A DNA stretch of 64,000 bases from Gordius sp. MW1 (lineage: Eukaryota > Nematomorpha > Gordioida > Gordea > Gordiidae): contig OZ038532.1 of the NCBI GenBank assembly GCA_964036665.1, forward strand, positions 2,170,001 to 2,234,000, read 5' to 3'. A program made the position numbers and the translations under genes. Below, one piece after another: positions 1,214 to 53,400 of the stretch. Position 1 is the stretch's first letter; every line of letters begins with the position of its first letter. A model generated the notes under the pieces. That model was given only the letters and a program-made list of their open reading frames with translations. It did not search any database and was not told the origin of the DNA.

Positions 1214-4200
1214 GTCAATTTTAAGACATGTGGTATAATTACTCCATTCCTTGAATCGATTTGTTATTGGATCGTAAACTTGATACCAGGAACCATTGCT
1301 CTCACAAGTCTTAGTTACTCGAGCATCTGACGGAAAGAACCAAAAATTAAATTTGTGAATAAATTACTTCAAACTAACATAATACAGCACTTTTAATAAA
1401 CATTTTTATATCTAATTAGTTGTTTAAACCTATTTAATTATAATATCATATTTTAACGATTTATATTAATCATTTCTTAGGTTCATTTTAAGGATTTTTT
1501 CACTTCAAGATTGCTTAAAGAGATCATATTTTTAAAATTTTTTAAAAATAGGATTTTAAAAATTGACACTATGTATGCAACTTGGCATAACGCATTTAAA
1601 GATTAATAAAAATTTTAATTTTACGAATGGTTTTGAACGAAATTTATTTTATCTTATAAAGATATTAATAGTTTATAAATTTGAAATTTAACTTATCGAA
1701 ATTCTATAATGTCATTATTAAATCAATAAGCATCGATTTTAATTGATATATTTTGCTGAATTTTGGTGTTGGGTTACAATGGATTTACTATTTCCCAAAA
1801 TTTAACAGGCGATTGATTCATTGATTGTTATGGATTTCTCTAATCGATATATGACAAATTGATTTGTAATCTACCATCTTGACATAAAGAAGAGGATTAG
1901 ATGACCCAGAAAAAATAATAAAGACATCATATTCATGTATCTACTAAAGCTCTAACAAATTTTTATTTCCTGCACAACATTATAGTTATTGATTTAAATT
2001 ACAAATTTTACTATGTTTATGGGCGTAGGTAGTGGGAGGCAAAAAGGGGCGGCTGCCTCCCTCTAAATACAGAAATTATTTAAGATTTATTAAAATTATG
2101 GCACATTTTAAACAATATCATTTTGCCCGCCCCAACACTACCTAATGGTCCCAAGTCCGTGTGCAAAAAGTGGAGAGTTGGCGTCAGGTCGGGAATTCTC
2201 TATAAAAACCAACGCCAAGATTATGATAGTTTCAAACAACATTTTAAAAGAAAAGGCTAGGGCGTCCTCCACAAACGACGCGCACTGCATACGTGCAATG
2301 TGAAAAATACGCTAGGGTTACTGCCCAACTCACAACGAAGGCGGTTAAGGAAATTAGTTGTTAAAAGAATGCGAATAACGTGCTGGAGTGTGGGAACGCT
2401 AACGGGAAAGAACATCGAGGTCGCACAAATGCTAAAAAGAAGAAAGGTACACATCGCCTGCCTACAAGTGATGAAGTGGAACGGAACAAAAGCTCGGGAA
2501 TTAGGAGAAGGATACAAGCTTTTCTACAGTGGGTCACCAAATCGTAGAAACGGGGTCGGTATCGTTCTAAGCAAATCGTTCAAGGACAAGGTCGTGGAAG
2601 TCAAGCGTTGTTACGACAGGCTAATGTGGGTGAAGATTGCAGATCAAGGGGGCCTCCTAACCGTTACGTGCGCGTATGCTTCCCAAATTGGGTGTATGGA
2701 ATCAGAGAAAGACATATTCTTTGATTCATTGGAAAAGAAAATACAAGGAACTCGACAAGAAGAAAGGCTAGGGCCGATTTCAATGCTCACGTAGGAAAAG
2801 ATCGCCTCGGGTATGAACGCAATCATGGAGGCTAGGGGCATGGTCTGAAGAACGAAGAAGGGGAAAAACTTCTTCAAGTATCTCAAGCATATGACATGGC
2901 GATCGTTAACACATATTTTCAAAAACGAGGAGATCATATTGTGACCTATAGAAGTAGAAAGCATTTTAGTCGAATTGACTATTTGCTTATACGGCGAAAG
3001 GACTTATGGAGTGTCAAGGATTGCAAAGTAATACAGGGAGAAGAAATCGCCAGGCAACATCGTCCCCTTGTTATGGATCTTGGCAGAAGAGTATTTTCCG
3101 AAAGAAGAAAGGTCAATGAGCCTCGAATTCGATCTGAAAAGCTAAAAGCTACGTCGACAAACAAAAAATACATCAAAAAGCCTCCTCACTCTTAGGTGCA
3201 AGGAAGTTGCAAAGGGACGTAGACGACGATTGGGAGACGCTATCTAAGGACATAAAGGAAACAGCGATTCGTGTTCTAGGACAGACCAAAGGAGGCAAAG
3301 CTATGAATAGGAAACTATGGTGGTGGGATCAATCGGTTAGGGATTTCATCGAAAGAAAGAAACATCTATATAGACTGTGGCATAAATCAAAGAAGTCTGA
3401 GGATTATCAAGAGTATAGGAACGCAAAGAGGGCCGCAAAAAAGGCCGTTGCAATAGCGAAGAATGCCGCCTACACCGAGATGGCAAACAAACTGGATCAT
3501 AAAGGGGGCGATAGGCTTATGTACAAATTGGCCAAGATAAGGGAGAAGAAAAGCCGCGATGTCGGAGTTCTTAAAATAGTCAAAGACGAGAAGGGTCATA
3601 CCTTATTCAAGCAGAAGGAAGTGATGGAAAGGTGGAAAGGATATTTTAAGAACCTTATGAATATTGCAAATGACAAGGATTCCCTTCCCGAAATTGAGCC
3701 AAATATAAGTATGGTCGAACTCTTTCAGGAGGATGAAGTTAGGGCACAAATGAACAAGATGCAAAAAGGAAAAGCATATGGCCCAGATGAAATACCTATG
3801 GAAGCAATACTCGGATATCGTGAAGAAGGAGTCACTACCATGACGAACCTTCTTAACCAGATATTGGTAGAAGAGCGAATTCCTAATCAATGGAGAGCAA
3901 GCGCGATTATACCCTTATTTAAAGGCAAAGGAGACCCTCAAGACTGTGGCAATTACAGAGGTATCAAGCTAACTTGCCACTCCTTGAAACTTATGGAAAA
4001 AATCTTAGTAACAAGGCTGAAAAACGAGGTGGAAATATCGGCTAATCAATTCGGATTTGTGGCCGGAAAATCCACAATCGACCCAATCTTCGCACTAAGG
4101 CAAATGATGGATAAGTATGGTGAAAAGAGGAAAGACCTACATATGGTCTTTATCGACTTGGAGAAAGCTTATGACACGGTCTCCCGCGATTTAATATGGT

Positions 4201-7109
4201 GGTGCCTGAGAAAACAAAATACCCCTGACGCATATATACGCCCTGTGAAAAATATTTATGAGACTCAAACTCATGCGTTAGGACGACAGTTGGAGACTCT
4301 AAATCTTTTAGGGTTAAAATTGGATTACAAGGATCTGCTTAAAGTCCTTTTTTATTTAATATAATTATAGACACGATAACGAGGGACATTCAAAAGCCAT
4401 CGCCATGGTGCATGCTATATGCCGATGATATAGTACTATGCGAGGAAACAAAAGAGAAAGAATTCGAAGAAACCCAAAAGTGGTCAAAAGCGCTTAGCTG
4501 GATATGGGTTAAAAATCAACGATCGAAAAACGGTATACATGGAAATGAACGGTACAAGCAACCCATCGCTGGATGACCCTCTAAAGTACCCAAAAGTAGA
4601 CAGGTTTACATACCTCGGCTCGATGCTACATGAAGAGGGAGGTTGCGCAACGGAGGTCGATGCCCGCATCCAAAAAGGATGGCTTAAATGGCGAAGTATA
4701 TTCGGTGTTATGGTTGAAGAGCAAAGCTTACAAATCTATCGTAAGACCGGTGCTACTCCACGGAAGGAAAGCTATTACAAGCCATAGAGATGAGAATGAT
4801 ACGGTGGAGCTTGGGGTATACTAAGCTCGACCTTATGACGAATGACTTTCTCATGACATAAATGGGTATTCAACCTATGGCGGACATGATTAACGAAAAT
4901 CGGCTAAGGTGGTATGGGCATATACTAAGAAGAGACACGAATGACAGAAATCAAAAAGTACTGGACATGGAGGTACAGGGCAAGAGATGAAGAGGACGAT
5001 CCCGTGTCACGTGGAAAGGGCAAGTCGATAAAGTAATGAAAACAAAAGAGATTAGTCAAGATATGGCACTCACCCGGTCAAGATGAAAGAAACTCATCAA
5101 AACAAACCCCACGACTGTGGGATCAAATAACTGATAAAGAAGAAGAAGAAGATCATTTTGCCCCCCCCTCTAAATTCAATGCTGGCTACGCCCATGACTA
5201 TGTATAAATTTAGTTGAAATTTATGCCTTAAAATTTTAAACAAGTTAATCTATTATTTTAATAATTAGATAATTTTCAATGTATTTTTCAAGGAAAAACG
5301 AATATTTAGCAAATTTTAGTCTAAGCTTTTGCAATTCCACTGGTCAACAAATAATGAACCTTTACAATCAACCGGCAAACGACTTGCAGATTTTAGTAAA
5401 GTTTTTTCGGTGAATACAAATGTAATTTTAGTTTTTTCCCTATAAGTCAAGTTTTTGATTCATAGCTAGTCTGGGGCCGTGGATAAGTTACTTTTGTATA
5501 TAACTAAAAATTAATAGAGCTAAGGTAACAAAATTTTTTGATTCCTCTCCCCTATATTAATAAATCGAATTATCTGAAATTTTACCGATTAATTTCCAAG
5601 TTATTGATGTCCAAAAAAGCCGAAGTTTAACTTTGACGGCAATTTATCAAATACTTGACCTATAGGAAAAAATTAAAAAATATTAACAACTGTGTTCACC
5701 GTTATAAACTCTATCAAAATCTCTAAACAGTTTGCCGGTCGATTTTTCTTATTTAACCCTGTTATTGAAGCGGTAAAATAAAAATAAAATTAAAATTAAA
5801 ATCACTGAGCTTAAAAACATTTAAAAGCACCTTGAGATAATGGAACTGTTCCCGCTAATATATAAATGGGGCACTGTTTGGCAATTTGTTGGTTCGCTTT
5901 AGTTTCAGGCCAACATTGCCACCCATCCCACACTGCTGGACAAGCTAAACATTAATATAAATATTTTTTACTTCCACTTAAATTGTAATTTTATTATAAT
6001 CAATTGAACAAAATATTTTGAGAAAAACAGTATTTCAAGCAAATATGTAATTATAAATTGTAAAAACAATCTGATTCGTGATTTAATTAAGAATAATATA
6101 GGAAAAACTTACTCCTTAAATAATTAATGTCACTAAATAATTAAAATAACTGTAGCGGTTGTGCTAAAGAAGAAATTGGTACAATTTAATTAACACATTT
6201 GTTTCAAAATTTTTATAGCACATATGTGCGAGTTTAATTTAAAGAGCAAATAAATTAGATTAATAACACCTGAGGTTCTCTAGAAATTTGCCAATAAAAG
6301 TCCATAGATGCTAAAAACTAAAATTAATTTTTGTAAACAATATTTTAAGATATTTAATTGCATATTTGCAATGGCATCCTATTCCGTATGAACTAAAGAT
6401 TTTTTTATAAATTCAAACATATAATTTTTAACTTGAATAAAAGTAAATTTATTTATTTCAACATTTATTTCATATTACTAAATAAAGGTTTAAATAAATT
6501 CTAAATAAATAAAATCATAAATAAGCAAATGATAGTCATTTTTAGGAATGCATTTATAACAGTAAAGCAGTATTTACTTTTAATCGTTTCTTGCGTAATA
6601 GTCAAATTAATCATTGACAATGTTTGTTGAACCATGGAATCACAACAGCGTCTAGCGGCTTTGCAACACTCTTGCCAATCCATCTTTTCCCTATCGTTTC
6701 TCAAATAATCTAAGACGGGGGAGTTAAGGTCTTCGGCATCCGCTTCAAAAATTCTAATTTCATTGTCAATTTCAAAATGGCCCCCATTTTGACCCTTAGT
6801 ATCATTCGTATCAAAGTTGAGATCTGTGCTGTTCCCGGTTAGTAAAAATTGCTTGAAATCTCCCATGTGAATTAGCCATCCACCGTAAACTTTAAGTTCG
6901 TAATCGGGGAATATGTAAGCGTAGCATTGGGCACAACTAACCTTATAAAATTTGTCAACACTAGCAAATCCATCAGATGAACGACATTGAGGTTGATTTA
7001 TAGTGTGGAATGTATTGTTGCTAATTGTACTTTGAGCCAATGTTAGAAGCAATAATAATAATTTTAGAGAGGGAATCATATTTAACTCGTAGGTGTTGAT
7101 TTTGTGCAT
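1214..7109 (-). CDS. Class B (secretin-family) peptide-hormone GPCR, 5' three coding exons (partial)
   Basis: Three minus-strand exons join in frame: 7109-6578 (phase 1 donor GTAAAT), 5944-5831 (acceptor TTTAG, donor GTGCTT, phase 1) and 1326-1214 (acceptor CGTCAG, donor GTAAAC, phase 0). Exon 1 encodes 177 residues. A second Met at residue 11 heads a leucine-rich signal peptide and may be the true start. Exon 1 then has NxT/NxS glycosylation sites and the cysteine cluster DWQECCKAARRCC. Exons 2-3 carry the hormone-receptor domain hallmarks: CPAVWDGWQCW, then CESNGSWY, then EWSNYTTC. In this family the domain binds a peptide hormone outside the cell and the following seven helices signal through G proteins. 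Those helices are not in the window. The domain looks calcitonin/DH31/CRF-receptor-like, but the ligand cannot be assigned. The 4.5-kb second intron contains a MITE split by an RTE-like retrotransposon, plus a long-TIR element. The N-terminus before the domain (about 178 residues) seems long for the family. Confidence 0.82.
2129..5151 (+). mobile_element. APE-type non-LTR retrotransposon, RTE-like, degraded
   Basis: The insertion is bounded by a 12-bp duplication, ATCATTTTGCCC (2117-2128 and 5152-5163), and ends in a (GAA)n tail. Open segments at 2300-2794 and 2896-3195 encode an apurinic-type endonuclease (WSVGTLTGK; later QHRPLVMDL). The usual CLQET catalytic glutamate reads CLQVM, so the nuclease is probably dead. 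The segment at 3207-4364 encodes reverse transcriptase ([34 protein letters not shown]). The polymerase box LYADDIVL is at about 4415-4440, after a frameshifted stretch near 4280-4380. The C-terminal part (RWYGHILRRDTND, about 4905-5120) is also open only in pieces. The inferred element is inactive. Its base composition is less AT-rich than its surroundings. The RTE clade is inferred from motif style, not from alignment. Confidence 0.88.
3207..4364 (+). pseudogene. Reverse transcriptase domain of the RTE-like element
   Basis: A 385-residue open frame with a lysine/arginine-rich N-terminal linker, then RT fingers and palm: GKAYGPDEIP (about residue 189), IPLFKGKGDPQDCGNYRGIKL (centred about residue 245), NQFGFVAGKST and FIDLEKAYD. 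The frame breaks before the YADD box, which is readable downstream in another frame (about 4415-4440). It synthesises element cDNA at the nicked target in intact relatives. Without the YADD box in frame this copy cannot work. It is part of the 2129-5151 insertion inside the GPCR intron. Confidence 0.85.
5366..5745. mobile_element. Long-terminal-inverted-repeat element, copy 1
   Basis: The left arm, starting ACCGGCAAACGACTTGCAGA, is matched in inverse by the right arm ending ACAGTTTGCCGGT. The arms are about 90-100 bp long and diverged. Both contain a TTTTTCCCTATA..CAAGTTTTTG-type block. It is related to the element at 9244-9745. No coding capacity is seen, so this is a non-autonomous DNA transposon of undetermined superfamily. 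It lies in GPCR intron 2. Confidence 0.6.
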
Positions 7110-7607: not shown

Positions 7608-7615
7608 ATATAAAT

Positions 7616-9061
7616 CAGGGGCGTAGACAAGGGGGTAGAAAAACGGATAGTTTACCCCCTTGGCCAAAAATTAATTTGTTTTATACGTTTTGGCACCAAT
7701 AAAAACCAAATTTGGAAAACTACCAGACCGATTTGGCTCAAAGTTTCACAGTTTATTCCCCATACTCCGGAGCATGTTTTAAGATTTGTTCGAGCCAAAT
7801 CGGTTCAGTAGTTTTCGAGGGGTCACGTTTTTTTGTTTTATACGTTTTGGCACTAATAAAACCAAATTTGGATAACTACCGATTTGGCTCAAAATTTCAG
7901 AGTTTATTCCCCATACTCCGGAGCATGTTTTAAGATTTGTTTGAGTCAAATCGGGCCAGTAGTTTTCGAAGGGTCACGTTTTTTTGTTTTATACGTTGTT
8001 TTATACATTTTGGCAATTAATAAAGACGTCATATGCTATGCAGTATAATATATGAAGCTTAAATGTTTTATGGCTGCATAAAAATTTTCTTTCATATTAA
8101 ATCAGGTCAGACCCGTTACCATATGAATGAACCAGAGGAATATAAACATTAGATTCTACAAAGTATTTTATGTCATGGTTATGCGTTTATTTGGTAGAAG
8201 AAACTTAAATTACATTTAAAACTCAGTGACATTTCTTTAAGGCTTATGCTAAACTTTACCATAAATTATTTGGGTTATATCTGTACTGCGTTATGAATAT
8301 TTTATGTTTTTAGTCAATTATTCATAAAGTGTAAGTCTACAGCCATTAGAAACACTTAAAAAGTGATACTGCAAAATGCAAAAATAAATGGCAAAACAAC
8401 GTTTGCCGGGTTCATCTAGTCTTATATATAAAAATGAAACTATGTGTGTATGCCGCCACCAATTTTGAAAAATACCAGACCGATTTGGCTCAAAATTTCA
8501 TAGTTTATTCCTGACACTCCGGAGCATGTTTTAAGATTTGTTTGAGCCAAATCGGTCCAGTAGTTTTCGAGAACAGTTTAGCGCCTGATTCTCAACTTTT
8601 TTGGAAAACTACCAATCCGATTTGGCTCAAAATTTCACAGTTTATTCTTGACACTCCGGAGCATGTTTTAAGATTGTTCGAGCCAAATGCAAATCGGTCC
8701 AGTAGTTTTCGAGTATTCGTACGCCTTGCACTGTATACGGAAATAGAACAATAGAAGTAGAACATATAGACATCAAACTTTATTTTTACTTCAATAACCG
8801 CTTTATCATCATATGCCCTAAAATTCCAACATAATTTAATACACCCGGGTAAATGGCAAAACAACGTTTGCCGGGTTCATCTAGTTAATAATATTATATT
8901 AGTAAATAGAAAAATAAGCCCTTCGGGCGTAGCTGGGGGCTTCGTCCCCAGACCCCCATCTCCTCGGGGGCTCCGCCTTATAAATAATTTATTGAAATAA
9001 AAATGTTTTTAAAAAATTGGAAAATTTCTACCCCCTTGAGAAAATCCTGGCTATGCCCCTG
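7616..9061 (+). mobile_element. Composite hAT element carrying Helitron-like units, copy 1
   Basis: The ends CAGGGGCGTAG...CTATGCCCCTG are flanked by an exact 8-bp duplication ATATAAAT (7608-7615 and 9062-9069), the hAT signature. The interior holds repeated blocks around CCGATTTGGCTCAAAATTTC and CTCCGGAGCATG (four pairs). It also holds two Helitron-like 3' ends, GCCGGGTTCATCTAG, at about 8405-8419 and 8870-8884. A GC-rich palindromic stretch (about 8915-8972) precedes the right hAT end. There is no transposase, so it would depend on enzymes from other elements. The same arrangement recurs inverted at 35642-37095. Confidence 0.85.
8420..8884 (+). mobile_element. Non-autonomous Helitron/Helentron-like unit
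   Basis: It begins TCTTATATATAAAAATGAAA directly after the CTAG of a preceding similar unit, and ends GCCGGGTTCATCTAG followed by T. A small hairpin, GGCAAA-ACAACG-TTTGCC, lies just before the terminal CTAG. A 5' TC, a 3' CTRR with hairpin, and no target duplication are Helitron traits. Internal blocks (CTCCGGAGCATGTTTTAAGA and the inverse pair GATTTGGCTC / GAGCCAAATC) resemble subterminal repeats of Helentron-type elements. It sits within the 7616-9061 hAT unit, head-to-tail with another unit. Confidence 0.65.
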
Positions 9062-9243
9062 ATATAAATTATTGTATTAATTTGAAGAAATTTTTTTTAT
9101 TAAAAATTGGAAGTTTTGACTATAAAAATATGAATATTATTGCTCTTTATAATCATGTAAAATTCATAATACTAAATGAAATCAATTAACTGAACATGTG
9201 ATATAAATAAGTTAAATGTAAAGATGCGATAAAAATATATAAT

Positions 9244-35519: not shown

Positions 35520-35641
35520 TAGCCAAATTCAAGTTAACCTAATGATTTAAAAGGAATCATTGCACCTATTAAATCGGTGTATGATAGTCATAGAATTGCC
35601 ATAGAACACAATAATTTTTCCAATAAGAAGAGGCCCGTGGT

Positions 35642-37095
35642 CAGGGGCGTAGCCAGGATTTTCTCAAGGGGGTAGAAGTTTTCCAATTTTTTAAAAACAT
35701 TTTTATTTCAATAAATTATTTATAAGGCGGAGCCCCCGAGGAGATGGGGGTCTGGGGACGAAGCCCCCAGCTACGCCCGAAGGGCTTATTTTTCTATTTA
35801 CTAATATAATATTATTAACTAGATGAACCCGGCAAACGTTGTTTTGCCATTTACCCGGGTGTATTAAATTATGTTGGAATTTTAGGGCATATATGATGAT
35901 AAAGCGGTTATTGAAGTAAAAATAAAGTTTGATGTCTATATGTTCTACTTCTATTGTTCTATTTCCGTATACAGTGCAAGGCGTACGAATACTCGAAAAC
36001 TACTGGACCGATTTGCATTTGGCTCGAACAATCTTAAAACATGCTCCGGAGTGTCAGGAATAAACTGTGAAATTTTGAGCCAAATCGGATTGGTAGTTTT
36101 CCAAAAAAGTTGAGAATCAGGCGCTAAACTGTTCTCGAAAACAACTGGACCGATTTGGCTCAAACAAATCTTAAAACATGCTCCGGAGTGTCAGGAATAA
36201 ACTATGAAATTTTGAGCCAAATCGGTCTGGTATTTTTCAAAATTGGTGGCGGCATACACACATAGTTTCATTTTTATATATAAGACTGGATGAACCCGGC
36301 AAACGTTGTTTTGCCATTTATTTTTGCATTTTGCAGTATCACTTTTTAAGTGTTTCTAATGGCTGTAGACTTACACTTTATGAATAATTGACTAAAAACA
36401 TAAAATATTCATAACGCAGTACAGATATAACCCAAATAATTTATGGTAAAGTTTAGCATAAGCCTTAAAGAAATGTCACTGAGTTTTAAATGTAATTTAA
36501 GTTTCTTCTACAAAATAAACGCATAGCCATGACATAAAATACTTTGTAGAATCTAATGTTTATATTCCTCTGGTTCATTCATATGGTAACGGGTCTGACC
36601 TGATTTAATATGAAAGAAAATTTTTATGCAGCCATAAAACATTTAAGCTTCATATATTATACTGCATAGCATATGACGTCTTTATTAATTGCCAAAACGT
36701 ATAAAACAACCTATAAAACAAAAAAACGTGACCCTTCGAAAACTACTGGCCCGATTTGACTTAAACAAATCTTAAAACATGCTCCGGAGTATGGGGAATA
36801 AACTCTGAAATTTTGAGCCAAATCGGTCTGGTAGTTATCCAAATTTGGTTTTATTAAGTGCCAAAACTTATAAAACAAAAAAACGTGACCCCTCGAAAAC
36901 TACTGAACCGATTTGGCTCGAACAAATCTTAAAACATGCTCCGGAGTATGGGGAATAAACTATGAAACTTTGAGCCAAATCGGTCTGGTAGTTTTCCAAA
37001 TTTGGTTTTATTAAGTGCCAAAACGTATAAAACAAATTAATTTTTGGCCAAGGGGGTAAACTATCCGTTTTTCTACCCCCTTGTCTACTCCCCTG
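35642..37095 (-). mobile_element. Composite hAT element carrying Helitron-like units, copy 2
   Basis: It is an inverted copy of the 7616-9061 unit, with ends CAGGGGCGTAGCCAGG and CTACTCCCCTG. An exact 8-bp duplication, CCCGTGGT, flanks it (35634-35641 and 37096-37103). The interior has the same order: GC-rich palindromic segment, Helitron-like CTAGATGAACCCGGC boundaries at about 35819 and (mutated) 36286, and the CATGCTCCGGAG blocks. Length is 1454 bp against 1446 bp. The different target duplications show two independent insertions of the whole composite. Confidence 0.85.
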
Positions 37096-37160
37096 CCCGT
37101 GGTTAAATGTCCAAGTCGCTAAAGAATTTGGTTAATCAGATTGAAGAGCAAGCACACATA

Positions 37161-50449: not shown

Positions 50450-53400
50450 ATGGACCGTACAATAATCAATGGTAGAAGGGGGCTCAGAAGGTGTAATTTA
50501 TTTTTATTTTCCCTTCTCCTAATCCTAACCTTGACCTGCTTATTCGACAGGGCACTCTCATCCGTAGTGGCTTTAGGTGCAAACGTTATATGCAGCAAGA
50601 TCCCAGGTCTCGCCCCGCAACAAAGGCTAATCTGCCAACGGACTCCGGAGGCAGTCATAGCTATATGGCAAGGAGCTAAGCTAGGTCTATCGGAATGCAG
50701 ATGGCAATTTAGAAATCAACGTTGGAATTGTACTATGATTACGACAGGAGGGGCAGGAACCCGTTCTTTCTCCACAGCTTCAACAAGCCTCAAGTCCGAT
50801 AATATTGTCCGATTTCCCAAGTCAACTTCTATTACAGCTCGTGGAGGAACAACTATATACGATTATCAAAATTCAGCCTCTTTCGTTTTTGGACCCGTTT
50901 TCATGAGAGGTAGGTAGATTGATGATAGAAGTGATGTAAGTTTTTCGTGAAAAAGGCATGTTGGAAAAATATAAAAAAAATTTGGGCTTTTATAAGGTAA
51001 CCAGGGTTTAATGAACCATTGGAGACCACGTAAAAAAACTTTTATGTGCTGAGTCATTAAGTTATATGTAGAGGAAGAAGTATAAATAATACTTTTGCCT
51101 AAAAAAATCAATAATTTTACAGGCGCGGCGGCTATTCCTTTGTAGTCTCATATTCTTTTCTTAATTTTTTGGCTGAAAAATGTGCTACCGATTATTAAAT
51201 TACTGAACGCGTCCCGACTCTCAAACATGTCGGTATCTTTAACAACAAAGGCCTGATCAGATATGTATTGTGTCTGAAGAGGGGAAATCTATGTTTTTAA
51301 CCCATTTTTAAATAATTTAATTAAGGTTTTATTGTAGAGTATAAGTGTTGCGGCCTTGACAAATTATTAAATACAATTTTTAACTTTGAATTCACTTCAT
51401 AGGTATACATCCTAAAATCAATATGTTTTTAAAAAATATTATAAAAATTTTCTTCAGTTTACGGGCGTAGCTAGAGTCTGAATTACAGGGTGGGGGCAAT
51501 AATGATTTAGGGAGGGGAAAAATAGTAAACATTTTAGCCATAATTTTTTAAATTTTAAAGATTTTTACGATGGGCAGCCGCCCCTCCCTGCCTCTCATCC
51601 CCCCATGCTTCAGCCTATGAGAAAAAAATTTAATTGTTTGATTTTCATAGATTAGTTAATAATAGGTTGGAAGTTAACATTTATTATATTTACCTTTTTT
51701 AATATACAATGATTTATTTTAGAATAACTCATTAGTTTCTATCTAACATTTATTGATCCAATGGAAATTGTTACACATATAATAGCGGTGTATAATTTGG
51801 TAGACTATAAAATTATATTTTTTTTACTCAATTTAAAGGATGAAATGAAATTATAGTTTTAATGGGGCAGTTCAGCCAGACATTAAAGAATTATGCTGTT
51901 AATATAACCTAAAACGCGGCTTTTAGATAAAAGGAAGGACAGGGAAAAGGGGGTACGACAAAATTGCCATTAAATATGTCGTTTTGTAGAAACATGTTGT
52001 TGTTACACATAAAAACATAGTGATCCAATAAATTATGTTTCATTTTTTATATGGGAAGCAATATTAATAAACTATCACCTAGAGTCAAATATTTATTTAA
52101 AGTTCGTGATAAAATTAAATTTGTTTAAATACCGTTTTCCATAAAAATATTATCAATTTTATGCAACGTAACTTTTTACACTGGACAATGTAATAGTTGT
52201 CAACTTGGCACATTTGCTTCTCAACGCTTAAAAAATTCGTAATTTTTGTAACCAATTAGTTGAAAAGGGTAATAACTTTTAGAGTTTATTTAACACTGAC
52301 GGCTTTCTTCAGATTATTAGATGGTATGGGGTTAACCAGCATTGGGAGGGGACAATAATGATTTAGGGAGGGGCAAAATGATCATTTTTTGAAATTTCAG
52401 CCGTATTTTTAATAAAATTCAACAAATTTTTGGATTTAAAGGGAAGCAGTCGCCCCTCTCTGCCCCCCTCTAGCTACGCCTAATCATTTAGAAAAACGAG
52501 CCAGCCTATTTAAATGATAACTTTTTTCAAGGTTTGTAAACACAATAATAATAATATAATGATAATGAATATTATTTTGTTGTTTATAACTTTCTAGCTA
52601 GTAGAGAAGCGGCATTTATGTATGCGGCAACTTCATCGGGTGTTATGTACGCCGTGATACAGGCATGTAGCAAAGGAAACATCTCCAATTGCGGTTGTGA
52701 TAAAAGCAAAGAATCCGGATTCACACCTCAAGGATGGAAATGGGGTGGTTGCTCGGCCGATATGAAGTATGGCATGCAAATGGCCCGTCGTTTTGTGGAT
52801 TCTCGGGAAATAGAAGGTGACGAAAGGTCCCTCATGAATTTACACAACAATCGAGTGGGACGCAAGGTTAATTTAATAGATTTTTATTATATTATTAACT
52901 GTTTAATTTAATTTATTTGCCAAAATTGAAATTTTTTGTATAATCCACTTAGCGTAGAGATGGGCTTAGTTGAGGGGGGCAAGGAGGAATGACTGCTTCC
53001 CCTTCAAATCAAAAATGCTTATTGATGTTAGGTTTAAAATTTTAAGACATCATCATTCTGTCCCTCTCAGTCACTTTTGCCCTCTTCTTAACCATATCAA
53101 TTTGCATTTATTTTATTCATAGAACTTTTGGGAGGGGGACCGTTTTTGGGTTGTTGATAGGGTAGGAGAAAGTCGATTTATTTAATAATCTTAATATTAA
53201 TTTCTGGTTGATGGCGTGAATTATCTTCATGGGCGTAGCCAAGGGGGGGGGGCAGGGAGGGGCGGCTGCCCCCCTCTAAATCCAAAAAATTGTTGAAATT
53301 CATTAAAATTATGGCTGAAATTCAAAAAATGTTCATTTTACCTTTCCCTAAACATCCTTTAATCATTATTGCCCCCCTCTAATTCCAAAGCTGGTACGCC

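Follow-up and report, generated by a model that had tools for sequence, protein, structure and literature searches.

The window analysed here, a 64,000-nucleotide stretch of the Gordius sp. MW1 genome (contig OZ038532.1, positions 2,170,001 to 2,234,000), holds two copies of one composite transposable element. Copy 1 lies at 7616-9061 on the forward strand and copy 2 at 35642-37095 on the reverse strand. The initial annotation had described two copies with the same hAT ends and head-to-tail Helitron-like units inside; the bounds were exact, and the copies are 98.3% identical over 1454 aligned columns. The outer ends read CAGGGGCGTAGACAAGGGGG (with one change in copy 2) and CTGGCTAYGCCCCTG. Each copy was also said to have its own exact 8-bp target-site duplication (TSD), and this is what we found: ATATAAAT at 7608-7615 and again at 9062-9069 around copy 1, and CCCGTGGT (forward-strand reading) at 35634-35641 and again at 37096-37103 around copy 2. 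The two copies are separate insertions, since neither occurs in any pair of copies with shared flanks. Elsewhere in the window, an open frame with a Wnt domain, which points to an animal host, lies at 50450-50914 (E 6.4e-13).

Copy 1 begins with a hAT left arm (7616-7675, forward strand), which opens with the terminal inverted repeat (TIR) CAGGGGCGTAG and matches the start of a longer hAT element, L101, at 60 of 60 positions. Next comes Helitron 1 (7676-8419, forward), which is 5'-truncated and consists of two ~157-bp subrepeats, a unique interior and a 3' CTAG end. Helitron 2 (8420-8884, forward) is full length, TC...CTAG, and is found end to end at 95% identity at the locus L104 (composite L035 used). 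The right arm spans 8885-9061 and is followed by the second TSD (9062-9069). In copy 2 the same parts lie on the reverse strand: the right arm at 35642-35818, Helitron 2 at 35819-36285, the 5'-truncated Helitron 1 at 36286-37035, and the hAT left arm at 37036-37095. Transposons of the hAT superfamily have TIRs with a CAGGG-like beginning, while Helitrons start with TC, are inserted between A and T, and end in CTRR followed by T. The outer element, with the TIRs CAGGGGCGTAG and CTAYGCCCCTG, fits the hAT rules in its 8-bp TSD and its CAGGG-like TIR start. For the inner elements, CTAG|T was present at Helitron 2 directly and at Helitron 1 by way of Helitron 2's own T. In copy 1 the two Helitrons meet where CATCTAG (8413-8419) runs directly into TCTTATATATAAAAATG, which starts at 8420; CATCTAG occurs again with its last letter at 8884. 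Helitron 1 has no TC 5' end; the 60 bp of hAT give way abruptly at 7676 to internal Helitron sequence. A stem was predicted before the Helitron 3' end (-6.3 kcal/mol), but z was only -1.30 and 22 of 200 shuffled sequences folded equally well.

The right arm is itself a mosaic. Its first 33 bp (8885-8917, forward) are 88% identical to the reverse complement of L101 positions 371-403 and are a probable hAT-interior remnant, inverted relative to the hAT ends; this reading is weak alone and is supported by L104, where inverted hAT DNA adjoins Helitron 2. The stretch at 8916-8944 (forward) is the GC-rich core of a third dispersed repeat, found at 413 places genome-wide with up to 3 mismatches, the composites' own copies included. 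This core reads AAGCCCTTCGGGCGTAGCTGGGGGCTTCG and looks hairpin-like, and many of the 100 listed places among the 413 read ACGCCCTTCGGGCGTAACTGGGGG. The possibility that the whole right arm is hAT DNA was rejected, as part of it belongs to this third repeat, a component that the initial annotation had not included. The terminal 73 bp (8989-9061, forward) are 93% identical to the end of L101 (94.5% when the end of L035 is compared). The composite is a non-autonomous derivative of a hAT element, and two Helitrons placed head to tail make up its interior.

We then considered how often the composite occurs in the genome (211.8 Mb, 12 contigs). A search with the whole unit scored the best 40 of 2,648 candidates and gives a lower bound; the copy count was taken from junction patterns, which served better. 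With up to 2 mismatches allowed, the pattern of the left arm occurred at 70 places, which were sorted by the letters following the arm into 61 composites and 9 places with no Helitron directly next to it. One of the 61 (C3:22994267) has altered letters after the arm, yet is a full composite (L033). Each of the 59 right junctions has a partner of like orientation among the 61 left arms, so none was left unpaired; the Helitron-Helitron junction was present too, within the distance allowed, in 57 of these 59 pairs. Of the 59 right junctions, that at C8:6013068 has a different Helitron end, and both left arms without a right junction have the Helitron-Helitron junction. At C8:6010063-6013248 (L106 and L108) a composite has grown to ~3.2 kb between exact 8-bp duplications of TTACCAAG, and on its 3' side another Helitron end, GCCGGGTCAGCTAG, replaces the usual one. 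We parsed 42 copies, namely the 2 in the window, 38 from the whole-unit search and 2 from a query of joined arms, and these are the best-scoring among the ~61. All 42 have both hAT ends, one Helitron-Helitron join, and exactly one Helitron 5' start, that of Helitron 2. Their lengths range from 1,283 to 1,606 bp, the shorter ones carrying one subrepeat (L064-L066) and the longer three (L068). Four copies (L055, L056, L057, and L067) lie ~29-35 kb apart at C1:10106410-10202410, with identical flanks.

The 42 parsed copies represent 38 independent sites. An exact 8-bp TSD was found at 33 of the 38, and at two more (L034 and L039) 7 of 8 positions matched. At the remaining three (L040, L061, and L062) there was no TSD at the fixed length of 8 bp; inspection by eye gave duplications of 7 bp at L040 and 6 bp at L061. 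As controls, the left 8-mer of each site was compared with the right 8-mers of other sites (0 exact of 1,406) and the comparison was repeated at an 8-bp offset (0 exact of 38). The frequency of TSDs was therefore far beyond chance. Six further copies picked independently of the full-length score (L013, L014, L017, L019, L023, and L025) all had an exact TSD and the Helitron-Helitron join. An uninterrupted paralogue of one insertion site was present in the window itself: the flanks of composite L059, joined with one TSD, aligned to 3084-3372 on the reverse strand without interruption at the junction, 268 of 290 positions being identical. This empty site lies partly within a reverse-transcriptase-like frame, with RVT_1 in the window at 3207-4361. 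Further uninterrupted matches were obtained for L064 and for L055, which sits in a ~72-bp tandem repeat, and weaker, gapped ones for L039, L044, and L061; L048, L051, and L068 also had candidate matches. It had been claimed that the Helitrons were in place before the composite moved; the shared junctions, the 38 independent sites and the 33 exact TSDs bear this out.

Individual copies differ from the consensus by 0.1-1.1%, and the spread was therefore recent. By part, divergence was 0.18% in the left arm (4/2,242 sites), 0.49% in the Helitron 1 interior (78/16,022 sites), 102/11,906 sites in the subrepeats, 0.56% in Helitron 2 (100/17,732 sites), and 0.49% in the right arm (33/6,700 sites). 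The hAT arms and the Helitron cargo are similarly young. Divergence of the hAT and Helitron parts was weakly correlated per copy (r = 0.11, with few differences per arm), which neither helps nor hurts the case for movement as a unit. From the 8-bp duplications we infer, at a level close to direct demonstration, that it was hAT and not Helitron activity that multiplied the cargo at the composite sites.

Most of the composite's cargo matches dispersed Helitrons. Genome-wide, the exact Helitron 3' end with A or T as its next letter was counted 455 times, of which at most ~61 belong to composites, so that most lie outside them. From contig C1 we sampled 20 places away from the composites known there, and the composite hAT right end was present at 0 of the 20; the Helitron ends thus do occur outside the unit, a point on which the initial annotation had made its proposal depend. 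CTAGT was seen in 20 of 20 outside copies by construction, being part of the search pattern. A recognisable TC 5' start was found in 16 of the 20 (three with two candidates). An A precedes this start in 15 of the 16, and at L086 the start follows another Helitron's CTAG. Helitrons outside composites lie side by side at L085 and directly head to tail at L086. Matches to the Helitron_like_N domain, counted by the domain alone, were many genome-wide (best 150 of 714 candidates). Over 256 columns the Helitron 1 interior (of composite L035) is 92% identical to L073 and L076, both of them Helitrons outside composites, and the outside matches of Helitron 1 are L073, L076, and L080, while Helitron 2 matches others. 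Judged by these matches, Helitrons 1 and 2 are members of different subfamilies. Of the head-to-tail Helitron units described earlier, then, the join is real, whereas Helitron 1 has no 5' end and two subfamilies are involved. When up to 3 mismatches were allowed, tandem CTAG|TC joins numbered 91, of which 31 do not lie in composites; the weakest of the 31 may be chance or belong to other Helitron families.

Relatives of the outer element were sought among the nine left-arm places with no Helitron directly next to the arm. Six of these were retrieved (L099-L104), with C3:25625567, C8:1400833, and C2:24043422 left out. Five of the six (L099-L103) share the left arm and the hAT ends and are free of Helitrons, so that the ancestral state for which a search had been recommended is present in this genome; the sixth (L104) has one Helitron. 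Duplications were exact in L099, L100, L101, and L103, and matched at 7 of 8 positions in L102. L101 (C6:9280327-9285175) is a 4,849-bp hAT element with the duplication CTTGGGCA, and L099, L100, L102, and L103 are shorter. The first 60 bp of L101 are identical to the composite left arm. Of its five frames, two match DUF4371 (one of them under the cut-off), one matches Dimer_Tnp_hAT (E 3.4e-11), and two match nothing; its transposase frames are broken. These relatives came from the left-arm pattern and not from the joined-arm query: among the best 40 of its 773 candidates, no close copy with exactly the right arm of the composite was uninterrupted. Right ends of the composite type occurred at 1,384 places genome-wide with up to 2 mismatches. 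A short MITE with similar ends lies within L013, with the duplication CTATGAGC as read by eye. Six other ends in the window (17045, 19705, 40342, 42516, 45191, and 46920) read CCTGGCTACGCCCATG or close to it and belong to a separate MITE-like family, whose ends are similar yet distinct. Among the listed hAT transposase matches (of 151 counted), no intact transposase with composite ends was found. Frames were short or broken both at the locus that supplied the transposase query and in the next copy (98%). Open frames of 752 amino acids were seen in five of the listed matches, 71% identical. No composite-type right end was found in the 500 bp downstream of one such frame or at ten hAT-domain loci (L089-L098).

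The left-arm places also included a one-Helitron state. The hAT copy at C3:7.20 Mb (L104 and L105) has an extended left arm (231 aligned hAT columns), and in it partly inverted pieces of hAT interior are followed by ...GCATTA|TC and a single Helitron. This Helitron ends in CTAG|TTAATAAT, and a composite-type right arm follows. The L104 Helitron is 95.3% identical, end to end, to Helitron 2 of L035, and the right arm is 95.9% identical to that of L035 over 169 columns. By best single alignment, an end-to-end match to Helitron 2 was found in 0 of the 20 sampled outside Helitrons. Since the Helitron and the right arm are about equally diverged, Helitron 2 and the right arm of L104 and of the composite probably descend from one insertion. 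The left junction of L104 was found at one place with 0 mismatches and at 15 places with up to 3, most of which arise from matching of the Helitron half; the one at C7:1316648 has 2 mismatches. No target duplication flanks the L104 locus (GTTCATCC on the left, TTTATAAC on the right), and so the locus may be a rearranged relic. It also suggests how Helitron stacks form, in that the A|T stays in place at the 5' edge of a Helitron, and insertion of another Helitron at that point would create CTAG|TC.

It is well established that hAT transposase moves whatever lies between its ends. We consider it very probable that a hAT derivative took up two Helitrons and then spread whole by hAT trans-mobilisation. 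The two ends of the unit would derive from a hAT family of the same genome, with most of the hAT interior lost and its place taken by the Helitron pair and a small piece of a third repeat. An internally rearranged hAT copy would have taken Helitron 2 at an A|T site, the state kept at L104. A Helitron of another subfamily would then have entered the A|T at the 5' edge of the first, creating the CTAG|TC join, and a deletion would have taken the 5' end of Helitron 1 together with the left hAT interior. Finally, hAT transposase acting in trans would have moved the whole stretch from one hAT end to the other by cut-and-paste, with 8-bp duplications, to ~61 places. The anatomy, the shared junctions, the independent sites, the empty site, and the relatives with no and with one Helitron were all observed directly; the order of events (Helitron 2, then Helitron 1, then the deletion) and the L101-type hAT family as the source of transposase are what we infer. 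Against this explanation weigh the single exact locus of the L104 type and its missing TSD, the failure to find an intact transposase with these ends among the listed matches, the three of 38 sites that do not show an 8-bp TSD, and the joined-arm query with its negative result.

Copying by segmental duplication or satellite amplification, flanks included and without transposition, had been named as the finding that would overturn movement as a unit, and it does account for some copies. L055, L056, L057, and L067 (C1:10.1-10.2 Mb) share flanks inside a ~72-bp tandem repeat, and this group of four is a large tandem duplication that carried the composite along. L032 (C2:18.56 Mb) and L046 (C7:18.79 Mb) share flanks as well; L046 is 98.9% identical over 2278 columns, flanks included, to L006, which holds the L032 copy, and this pair reflects either a segmental duplication or a nest within a larger mobile element. 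These two groups are the only ones with shared flanks among the 42 copies. The remaining sites, among them those of the two window copies, differ in their flanks and have duplications of their own, and uninterrupted paralogous sites exist. As a general cause segmental duplication is very improbable; it was rejected on the flanks and accounts for 4 of the 42 parsed copies, and movement as a unit stands. Independent entry of Helitrons into existing hAT copies, site by site at a hot spot, would draw on the abundance of Helitrons in the genome and on CTAG|TC joins away from composites (31 of 91). However, it would have to reproduce, in 42 of 42 copies, a single join between Helitrons and a single Helitron 5' start, with junction letters common to copies that are each only 0.1-1.1% from consensus, and the truncation breakpoint would not recur in independent events at dozens of sites. 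These shared breakpoints led us to reject it as hardly credible.

Helitron 2 keeps both of its ends, and rolling-circle replication might accordingly have spread the unit as the cargo of a Helitron, the hAT ends being passive. Helitrons make no target-site duplications, whereas the mobile unit ends in hAT termini with 8-bp duplications, and no 5' start of the cargo's Helitron family was found within 200 bp to the left of the 42 copies. Such spread is refuted by the 8-bp duplications, and its probability is close to nil. A further question is whether the stacked Helitrons were a rolling-circle concatemer that landed in a hAT element at once. The CTAG|TC join is direct, head to tail and free of spacer, as a concatemer would have it, but the interiors of Helitrons 1 and 2 differ, with separate outside matches, and Helitron 2 stands alone in the same hAT context at L104. 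A concatemer is thus rather unlikely; two insertions are likelier because the two Helitrons match different outside subfamilies, and they probably entered one after the other. Because Helitron 2 keeps both ends, a relaunch is conceivable, in which hAT scatters the composite and Helitron 2 then launches by rolling circle from the ~61 sites. We regard this as doubtful; if true, each transposon system would seed sources for the other.

The reading preferred here, a hAT derivative moving with its Helitrons, has counterparts among known elements. Non-autonomous hAT elements (Ds-like deletion derivatives and hAT MITEs) have hAT ends and 8-bp TSDs, contain no transposase gene, and are moved in trans. 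The composite is like them in its hAT ends, 8-bp TSDs, absence of a transposase gene and probable movement in trans, whereas their interior is deleted or filler DNA and its cargo is two Helitrons and a piece of a repeat. In animals, the Pack-TIR element hAT-N8_XT is described as carrying a piece of the CAPSL 5' UTR on three chromosomes with three distinct TSDs (PMC8277862). As in the composite, a hAT element took up foreign DNA and multiplied it; unlike the composite, where the cargo is transposons that inserted themselves and is present in ~61 copies, the Pack-TIR cargo in that account is host gene sequence (PMC8277862). Chimeric elements of nested superfamilies have been mentioned as an annotation class (PMC7728395). 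That class resembles the composite in joining two superfamilies in one repeat, but where it is mentioned it is described without the boundaries, TSDs or intermediates that the composite has (PMC7728395). In Calliphora vicina, Helitrons nested in DNA transposon fragments have been reported, likewise Helitrons in a cut-and-paste element, and the description of these nests does not state onward movement (PMC3630058). Compared by description, non-autonomous Helitrons of insects such as Hel1 share the 5' TC and short copies seen here (PMC6544945). Further literature was consulted for comparison (PMC4344730, PMC4486113). A search of open-access literature by titles, which was not exhaustive, gave no report of a hAT family carrying Helitrons.

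Together, the composite is a well-resolved case of a known class, that of nested transposons moving as one. The record of one transposon class becoming another's cargo is unusually complete, because states with no, one and two Helitrons, young copies and an empty site are found in one genome. For annotation it serves as a warning that a single repeat consensus can span three repeat families, and Helitron counts in such genomes include copies that were not moved as Helitrons.
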